From Pseudomonadota bacterium (lineage in GTDB: Bacteria; Pseudomonadota; Gammaproteobacteria; Burkholderiales; REEB80), in contig JAGWIG010000002.1 of the NCBI GenBank assembly GCA_028873515.1, positions 1 through 64,000 of the forward strand: a stretch of DNA of 64,000 nucleotides. Direction: 5' to 3'. Position numbers and translations under genes: made by a program. The notes beneath the pieces are model-generated. The model saw only the letters and a program-made list of their open reading frames with translations. It was not told where the DNA came from and did no database searches. This document shows, in pieces, positions 55,309 to 57,144 of the stretch; position 1 is the stretch's first letter; the number at the start of each line of letters is the position of its first letter.

Positions 55309-56208
55309 ATGCTTAACTGGATATCACAACACTGGCACACTTTTTGGCAAACACTTGGCCGTTTGGTTAGAGCCCCCATTTCAACCTTACTGGCAATTCT
55401 AGTCATGGGAACAACCCTTTGTCTTCCAGCCGGGCTTTATCTCATGCTGCATAGCCTAAACAGGCTACAGGGAGTAATCCACGAAAATCCCCAGGTAACC
55501 ATATTTATGAAAATCCTGTCAAACAGTTCGGATATACAGCAGGTTAATGGTTTGTTAAATCAAGATACAGAGGTAAAGGATTACAAATTCATTCCCAAGA
55601 ATGAAGCATTGAAGTCCCTGGCTCAACGTTCAGGAATTACCGATCTTCTTGCAGGATTGCCTTCAAATCCTCTTCCCGATGCTTTTGTAGTTCGCCTAAA
55701 AAACAGCACGCCCGAAAACATAGCCTATTTCAAAAACTCTGTATTGAACTGGCCATCTGTTGACTCAGTTCAATACGACGCAATCTGGGCACAAAGACTT
55801 GCTGCTCTTATTTCCCTTGGGCGTAACTTTATAATTCTAATAAGCGTTCTGCTTGCTTTTACTGTTTCAGTAATAATTGGCAATACCATACGCCTACAAA
55901 TTGCGAGCCGCCAAGCTGAAATTGAAGTTAGCATACTGATTGGAGCAACCCGTCGATTTATCCGCCGACCTTTCCTCTATTTTGGCGCTTTACAAGGTCT
56001 TGCCTCTGGCCTGATTGCATGGGGAATACTTCAACTCTGCTTAATGGCTATCAATGTTAAAATTTCAGCTTTTTCAAATCTATATGGTTCAATATTTATA
56101 CTCCACAGTTTTTCCCCTTCGGCTATTGCTGTTCTTCTTGCAGGCTCTTCTGTTGCTGGTTGGCTTGGTGCCATATTTGGTACTTCATACGCCATAAAAA
56201 ATATTTAA
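55309..56208 (+). CDS. ftsX: Cell division protein FtsX
   Basis: Membrane partner of FtsE, 299 residues. The layout is cytoplasmic N terminus, TM1 (LLAILVMGTTLCLPAGLYLML), a periplasmic loop with FMKILSNSSDIQQV and WPSVDSVQYDAIWAQRL, then three more helices. SRQAEIEVSILIGATRRFIRRPFLY is the conserved cytoplasmic coupling segment. It starts 3 bp after ftsE. Confidence 0.95.
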   Translation: MLNWISQHWHTFWQTLGRLVRAPISTLLAILVMGTTLCLPAGLYLMLHSLNRLQGVIHENPQVTIFMKILSNSSDIQQVNGLLNQDTEVKDYKFIPKNEALKSLAQRSGITDLLAGLPSNPLPDAFVVRLKNSTPENIAYFKNSVLNWPSVDSVQYDAIWAQRLAALISLGRNFIILISVLLAFTVSVIIGNTIRLQIASRQAEIEVSILIGATRRFIRRPFLYFGALQGLASGLIAWGILQLCLMAINVKISAFSNLYGSIFILHSFSPSAIAVLLAGSSVAGWLGAIFGTSYAIKNI

Positions 56209-56237
56209 CCAATTGACTTGATTTATTTTAATTAAAT

Positions 56238-56264
56238 TTGGCACTCTACATTAGAGAGTGCTAA
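56238..56264 (+). promoter_or_regulatory. CIRCE operator (HrcA site) upstream of rpoH
   Basis: TTGGCACTC-N9-GAGTGCTAA matches the CIRCE consensus TTAGCACTC-N9-GAGTGCTAA at all but one position, with the exact 9-base spacer. CIRCE is the operator of the heat-shock repressor HrcA. A possible promoter is superimposed: -35 TTGGCA (56238-56243), 18-bp spacer, -10 TAAAAT (56262-56267). The one deviation from CIRCE (A to G) keeps the -35 close to TTGACA. A second -35-like TTGACT lies upstream at 56213. hrcA is not in this window. Confidence 0.88.
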
Positions 56265-56265
56265 A

Positions 56266-56303
56266 ATAGCCTTAGGATTTGATCCAAACCTATTTGGAGG
56301 CTA
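56266..56303 (+). promoter_or_regulatory. Possible SD-sequestering hairpin in the rpoH leader
   Basis: ATAGCCT (56266-56272) is the exact complement of AGGCTAT just before the rpoH ATG, and the second arm includes part of the GGAGG Shine-Dalgarno. TAGG/CCTA can extend the stem inside. The fold resembles simple RNA thermometers. It can only form in transcripts starting upstream of 56266; from the TAAAAT -10 the first arm would be lost, so the two readings compete. Confidence 0.4.
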
Positions 56304-56304
56304 T

Positions 56305-57144
56305 ATGACAAATCATTTTGCGCTCCCAGTTGCCACAGCAAGTAACCTTGATGGATACATCCAATCTGTCAAGCAATTTCCTATTCTTTCGGCAACTGAA
56401 GAAGCTGACCTTGGCCGTCGCTTACGCCAGCATAATGATCTGGGTGCGGCACGTGAATTAATCCTGTCCCATCTTCGTGTGGTTGTTAGCATAGCTCGTG
56501 GATACCATGGTTATGGGCTACCCCAGGCAGATCTAATTCAAGAAGGCAACATTGGACTTATGAAAGCAGTCAGGCGCTTTGATCCTGACCGTGGAGTACG
56601 GCTTGTTTCTTTTGCAATTCACTGGATACGGGCAGAAATTAACGAATACATCATACGTAACTGGCGATTAGTCAAAATTGCAACAACCAAGGCTCAACGT
56701 CGCTTATTCTTTAATCTTCGCAGTTTGAAGCAAAACCTTGGATTCATGGGGAAAGATGAAATTCATGAAATTGCCCGTGAGCTTAAGGTGAAGCCAGAAG
56801 AAGTTGTAGAAATGGATATACGCCTGTCTGGGCGTGACTGCGCCTTGGAAAATCCGGATGATGAAGGACCCGAGCCTTTAGATTATCTGACTGACCCCGG
56901 TGCGGAACCCTCAGTATTTCTTGAAAACCTTGAGCAGGAAAAGCTGCTCGCCACAGGCCTTGGCAATGCCTTGGACACTCTTGATACCCGTAGTCGCAGG
57001 ATTATTGAAGCACGCTGGCTTAATCCTGACAATTCCCTAACACTTCATGACCTGGCGGCCGAATTCGAAGTATCAGCAGAGCGCATCCGTCAGATAGAAC
57101 AAAAAGCCTTAAAGCAGCTCAAATCAGTAATGATTGAGAATTAA
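56305..57144 (+). CDS. rpoH: RNA polymerase sigma factor RpoH (sigma-32)
   Basis: Heat-shock sigma factor, 279 residues. Region 2 contains DLIQEGNIGLMKAVRRFDP and VSFAIHWIRAEI; the RpoH box is QRRLFFNLR, diagnostic for sigma-32. Region 4 ends with a helix-turn-helix (LHDLAAEFEVSAERIRQIE). GGAGG lies six bases upstream of the ATG. The CIRCE site upstream implies HrcA control, placing the sigma-32 regulon under the HrcA repressor. It follows ftsX, as in related bacteria. Confidence 0.97.
   Translation: MTNHFALPVATASNLDGYIQSVKQFPILSATEEADLGRRLRQHNDLGAARELILSHLRVVVSIARGYHGYGLPQADLIQEGNIGLMKAVRRFDPDRGVRLVSFAIHWIRAEINEYIIRNWRLVKIATTKAQRRLFFNLRSLKQNLGFMGKDEIHEIARELKVKPEEVVEMDIRLSGRDCALENPDDEGPEPLDYLTDPGAEPSVFLENLEQEKLLATGLGNALDTLDTRSRRIIEARWLNPDNSLTLHDLAAEFEVSAERIRQIEQKALKQLKSVMIEN

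Follow-up and report, generated by a model that had tools for sequence, protein, structure and literature searches.

We propose that the 27-bp CIRCE element in front of rpoH, in the 64-kb stretch of DNA analyzed here (the window), very probably serves both as an HrcA operator and as the greater part of a sigma-70 promoter. The case is carried by the sequence itself, by the conserved register of its elements, by an asymmetry between the two arms of the repeat, by a contrast with the CIRCE element of groES, and by co-occurrence with hrcA. Judged from about 200 relatives, this fusion of operator and promoter at rpoH appears to be old, widespread, and kept in register.

CIRCE is the inverted repeat TTAGCACTC-N9-GAGTGCTAA, of which few mismatches are allowed. 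The features on which the argument rests are these, all on the plus strand.

55309..56208, plus strand: ftsX, upstream of rpoH
56238..56264, plus strand: CIRCE, the predicted HrcA operator, TTGGCACTC-TACATTAGA-GAGTGCTAA, with one mismatch to the consensus (left arm 56238-56246, spacer 56247-56255, right arm 56256-56264)
56238..56243, plus strand: predicted -35 element TTGGCA, coinciding with bases 1-6 of the CIRCE left arm
56259..56261, plus strand: TGC just before the -10 element (extended -10 motif), within the CIRCE right arm
56262..56267, plus strand: predicted -10 element TAAAAT, which begins with the last three bases of the CIRCE right arm
56273..56276, plus strand: region in which transcription would be expected to start, as inferred from the -10 element, giving a leader of about 30 nt
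56296..56300, plus strand: ribosome-binding site GGAGG
56305..57144, plus strand: rpoH, heat-shock sigma factor sigma-32, 279 aa (TIGR02392)

Read directly, the sequence places the element where the first-pass annotation had put it and as it had been described: a one-mismatch CIRCE, its sole deviation an A to G change at left-arm position 3, ends 40 bp before the rpoH ATG at 56305, in the promoter/leader region of a heat-shock gene. The identity of RpoH is secure (TIGR02392, 384.9 bits against a cut-off of 323.1). The window holds no other CIRCE at three or fewer mismatches, and with 0.03 expected by chance and conservation across the order, a chance match is ruled out as the source of the site. 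TTGGCA and TAAAAT do lie 18 bp apart, as had been claimed, and together they match 10 of the 12 hexamer bases of a sigma-70 promoter, with a TG before the -10 element and a spacing within the 16-18 bp range; a spacer one base pair longer than the sigma-70 optimum counts against the promoter model. CIRCE covers the whole of this predicted promoter except its last three bases, and its right arm also supplies the TG of the extended -10 motif, which the first-pass annotation had overlooked.

The same annotation had made its reading hinge on an hrcA gene elsewhere in the genome. One intact copy is present (TIGR00331, 314 bits against a cut-off of 197), so that this ground for rejecting the operator falls away. 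Only two CIRCE sites with at most one mismatch occur in the 3.4-Mb genome, one at rpoH and one at groESL, the latter (L001:1501-1527) lying between groES and, 40-50 bp away, a bioA-like gene of opposite orientation with which it is shared. At the hrcA-grpE locus no CIRCE is found (best candidate, 7 mismatches), and a pattern search of the genome, including hrcA, grpE, and dnaK, returned no third good site. Of the two genes at which the first-pass annotation had advised looking for CIRCE, groES has a good site and dnaK does not, and with two sites in the genome and none at hrcA-grpE, the predicted HrcA regulon comprises groESL and rpoH.

The arrangement extends far beyond this genome. In a sample of 200 genomes of the order, CIRCE was found in 171, usually twice per genome, and among the 166 from which DNA upstream of rpoH could be collected, 142 carry a CIRCE with three or fewer mismatches within 400 bp of the gene. 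Named public loci give the same picture: CIRCE precedes rpoH in 77 of 80, including those of Nitrosomonas europaea, Bordetella, Herbaspirillum, Janthinobacterium, Paraburkholderia, and Pandoraea, with no recognizable CIRCE at rpoH in the remaining three (Gallionella, L317, and Nitrosospira, L344 and L352). Judged by these names, the order is probably Burkholderiales as broadly defined in GTDB. In a thin sample across the phylum, CIRCE with this tail is found mostly at groES, and at rpoH in two genomes outside the order. CIRCE before rpoH is therefore the rule in the order and rare elsewhere in the phylum as thinly sampled here.

Comparison of the two targets of the repressor provides a first test of the overlap. 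At rpoH, the three bases that follow CIRCE read NAT and complete a TAnnnT motif. The completing T, which lies outside CIRCE, is kept at 138 of 142 rpoH sites as against 10 of 104 groES sites; where a genome has both sites (97 cases), it is present 94 times at rpoH and 8 times at groES (discordant pairs, 86 versus 0), and TAnnnT stands in register at 94 of the 97 paired rpoH sites versus 5 of their groES counterparts. The sampled genomes are related and raw counts overstate their independence, a concern addressed in part by taking one genome per family, which gives TAnnnT at 38 of 38 rpoH sites and the completing T at 2 of 30 groES sites. Upstream of the element the relationship is reversed: CCCTATnA, a sigma-32-like -10 sequence, directly precedes CIRCE at 69 of 97 paired groES sites versus 4 of 97 rpoH sites, and it is absent at the rpoH of the window. 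Since the groES CIRCE follows a sigma-32-like -10 element, it would sit at the start site there, and from the position of CIRCE relative to the -10 element, two targets of one repressor appear to differ in anatomy.

The arms of the palindrome give a second line of evidence. Left-arm position 3 is G, a change toward TTGACA, in 56 of 142 rpoH sites, and the mirror base, which at rpoH is the first T of the -10 element, is altered in none of the 142; at groES, changes at position 3 and at its mirror are symmetric (9 and 11 of 104). The direction of the deviation was thus read correctly at the outset. A first comparison with groES was biased toward near-perfect sites and yielded paired G3 counts of only 3 versus 2, and it was repeated with 104 genomes, the second batch of which had been selected in part for carrying G at the rpoH site. 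The resulting discordant pairs on G (41 versus 5) are biased by that choice of genomes, which leaves the left/right comparison within sites unaffected. We also considered that the G3 arm might merely be this genome's own version of CIRCE, given that one arm of its groESL site also reads TTGGCACTC; a single genome cannot decide the matter, and the order-wide asymmetry between left and right does.

The operator also follows its repressor. Among 200 genomes, hrcA and CIRCE are both present in 168 and both missing from 21, with hrcA only in 8 and CIRCE only in 3 (p = 5e-19), the last three being drafts of 78-84% completeness; CIRCE and hrcA are usually lost together. Where hrcA is missing, the palindrome can decay and leave the promoter behind, as in G193 (TTGGCA-18-TAGAAT), G171 (TTGGCA-17-TACTAT), and G034 (ATAGCA-18-TAAAAT), the three genomes on which this test of promoter persistence rests. 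Most other hrcA-less genomes have no recognizable promoter at this position, being either so divergent that no judgment is possible or reliant on different sequences. These comparisons lend good support to the suggestion that operator and core promoter may be the same DNA, namely through the TAnnnT register, the one-sided deviation, the joint loss with hrcA, and the hexamers left in three genomes without it.

Other explanations deserve consideration. The site could be an ordinary HrcA operator that acts as a roadblock or lies at the start site of another promoter, its likeness to -35 and -10 elements being incidental to the CIRCE consensus. The consensus right arm always includes TGCTAA, a sigma-32-like -10 element closely precedes the groES CIRCE of the same genomes, and operators at start sites are common, as in Lactobacillus plantarum, in which CIRCE begins 3-4 nt after the start site (PMC1676014). 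An incidental likeness does not account for the base outside CIRCE that is kept at rpoH and seldom found at groES, or for left-arm changes that are one-directional at rpoH only, and we consider this explanation improbable. Less probable still is that the site has lost its binding of HrcA and, as a decaying relic, is retained only as a promoter. The window site is one mismatch away from the consensus and promoters outlast CIRCE in hrcA-less relatives, as a relic would predict; against this, the inner arm bases GCACTC/GAGTGC, which the promoter does not need, are nearly invariant among the 142 rpoH sites, the arm with the mismatch recurs in the genome's own groESL site, and the presence of CIRCE tracks hrcA. 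We give the relic very little credence.

A further possibility grants the overlap and questions its consequence: rpoH might be transcribed mainly by read-through from ftsYEX or from some other promoter, leaving HrcA with little effect on sigma-32. In the window, ftsY, ftsE, ftsX, and rpoH are co-directional, the gap between ftsX and rpoH is 96 bp, and no terminator-like site was found within it, so read-through from the ftsX side could supply much of the rpoH mRNA. In known systems, sigma-32 is also controlled by translation, chaperones, and proteolysis. That the combined operator and promoter is kept in nearly all hrcA-bearing families implies, on the other side, a selected effect on rpoH transcription, and we regard a minor role for HrcA as possible but rather unlikely. 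The claim in the first-pass annotation that the entire sigma-32 regulon is turned on once HrcA is lost nevertheless goes beyond the evidence, because read-through from ftsYEX is possible and because, in well-studied bacteria, sigma-32 is also controlled after transcription.

In the preferred reading, in which operator and promoter are one, the -35 element would be formed by the outer six bases of the left arm, the end of the right arm would provide the TG of the extended -10 motif and the TAA of TAAAAT, and the 18-bp promoter spacer would be fixed by the length of CIRCE. Because the promoter elements lie in CIRCE, bound HrcA should exclude RNA polymerase, and repression would thus operate through direct competition for the DNA and not through a block to elongation. 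HrcA requires GroE for its activity (PMC1676014). If GroE is titrated by unfolded protein, as in known systems, HrcA would become inactive and rpoH transcription would rise together with that of groESL.

In most relatives a third element may be superimposed on the other two, which the first-pass annotation, made from the window, did not include (examples are found in L047-L074 and L075-L174). A GGAACTT block occupies a fixed place 16-17 bp before the rpoH CIRCE, in the stretch 9-18 bp upstream of it, and is present at 103 of 141 sites (~73%); shuffled sequences gave 4 on average and 11 at most. The sigma-E motif consists of a -35 element GGAACTT and a -10 element TCAAA (PMC4890791). Sixteen bases after the end of GGAACTT, T8 and C9 of CIRCE and a spacer that starts with TnA form TCTnA, and the spacer T and A are present at 66 of the 103 sites with GGAACTT versus 3 of the 38 without it (p = 7e-10). 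In vitro, SigE of Bordetella bronchiseptica can transcribe from the region that holds the rpoH (fam) promoter (PMC3490749), a result in favor of a sigma-E promoter at rpoH in this group. Two promoters thus appear to share one operator across most of the order. We somewhat favor the view that, in these relatives, promoters for sigma-E and sigma-70 and an HrcA operator covering parts of both are superimposed in fixed register within about 45 bp. The sigma-E -35 element GGAACTT would lie about 9 bp upstream and its -10 element TCTnA would be formed by the end of the left arm and the spacer, such that HrcA would gate both promoters and, with them, induction by sigma-E. Both the window genome and its genus mate are missing the GGAACTT block, although rpoE is present in the window genome; as part of the same reading, the window lineage would represent a reduced, two-element form that lost the sigma-E -35 element or never had it. 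If this is correct, the same bases before rpoH integrate cytoplasmic input through HrcA/GroE, envelope input through sigma-E, and housekeeping input.

Heat shock in Proteobacteria is usually described as being controlled either by sigma-32 or by HrcA. If, throughout a large order, the promoter of the sigma-factor gene itself contains the repressor site, both systems would be wired in series at the level of DNA. The site would also be a case of two codes written on the same bases, in which the constraint imposed by the promoter is visible as one-sided decay of the palindrome and a promoter can outlive the loss of its repressor. In addition, sigma-32 induction in betaproteobacteria becomes directly testable.

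CIRCE elements in betaproteobacteria were reportedly surveyed by Permina and Gelfand in 2003, and that survey probably already lists rpoH. As the first-pass annotation rightly suspected, CIRCE at rpoH, here an order-wide rule, is not new in itself; CIRCE overlapping a promoter is also known, from another gene. Comparative genomics placed a CIRCE with perfect arms at position -51 of rpoH in Geobacter sulfurreducens (Rodionov et al. 2004, PMC545781, Table 8), that is, the same operator at the same gene and at a similar distance. That listing concerns a single genome and does not mention promoter overlap, whereas the betaproteobacterial arrangement is order-wide and in register with -35 and -10 elements. 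The dnaK promoter of Lactococcus lactis likewise has CIRCE overlapping promoter sequence; unlike the single CIRCE at a sigma-factor gene described here, it contains two overlapping CIRCE elements and belongs to a chaperone operon of a Gram-positive organism (PMC1676014). In having a sigma-E-type factor act at rpoH, the relatives resemble Escherichia coli rpoHP3 and B. bronchiseptica fam/rpoH (PMC3490749), but the account of fam makes no mention of CIRCE, inside which the predicted sigma-E -10 element of the relatives lies, and the window lineage is without a sigma-E -35 element. Within the literature accessible to us, most subscription papers being outside the search, we found no account of CIRCE at betaproteobacterial rpoH or of its overlap with the promoter, and nothing on an order-wide sigma-70 merger, one-sided palindrome decay, or a sigma-E overlay. 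We regard the arrangement as real and as a refined variant of a known one; the predicted sigma-E promoter overlapping the rpoH CIRCE in most relatives is new here.

Several individual sites depart from the common pattern. In the two genomes outside the order, CIRCE directly precedes an rpoH-like gene and is followed by TAAAAT (L411, G250) or TAAACT (L402, G225), which may point to more than one origin of the arrangement. The rpoH CIRCE of G182 (L166), an hrcA-bearing genome, has perfect arms separated by a 10-base spacer (TTAGCACTC-ACATGACAGA-GAGTGCTAA), and the spacing of the arms may not be strictly 9. Finally, in one hrcA-bearing family (G072, L112; G026, L140), the left arm CTGGCACTC is intact, the right arm is degraded, and the promoter hexamers are partly kept, a half-decayed state that is a possible intermediate of operator loss.
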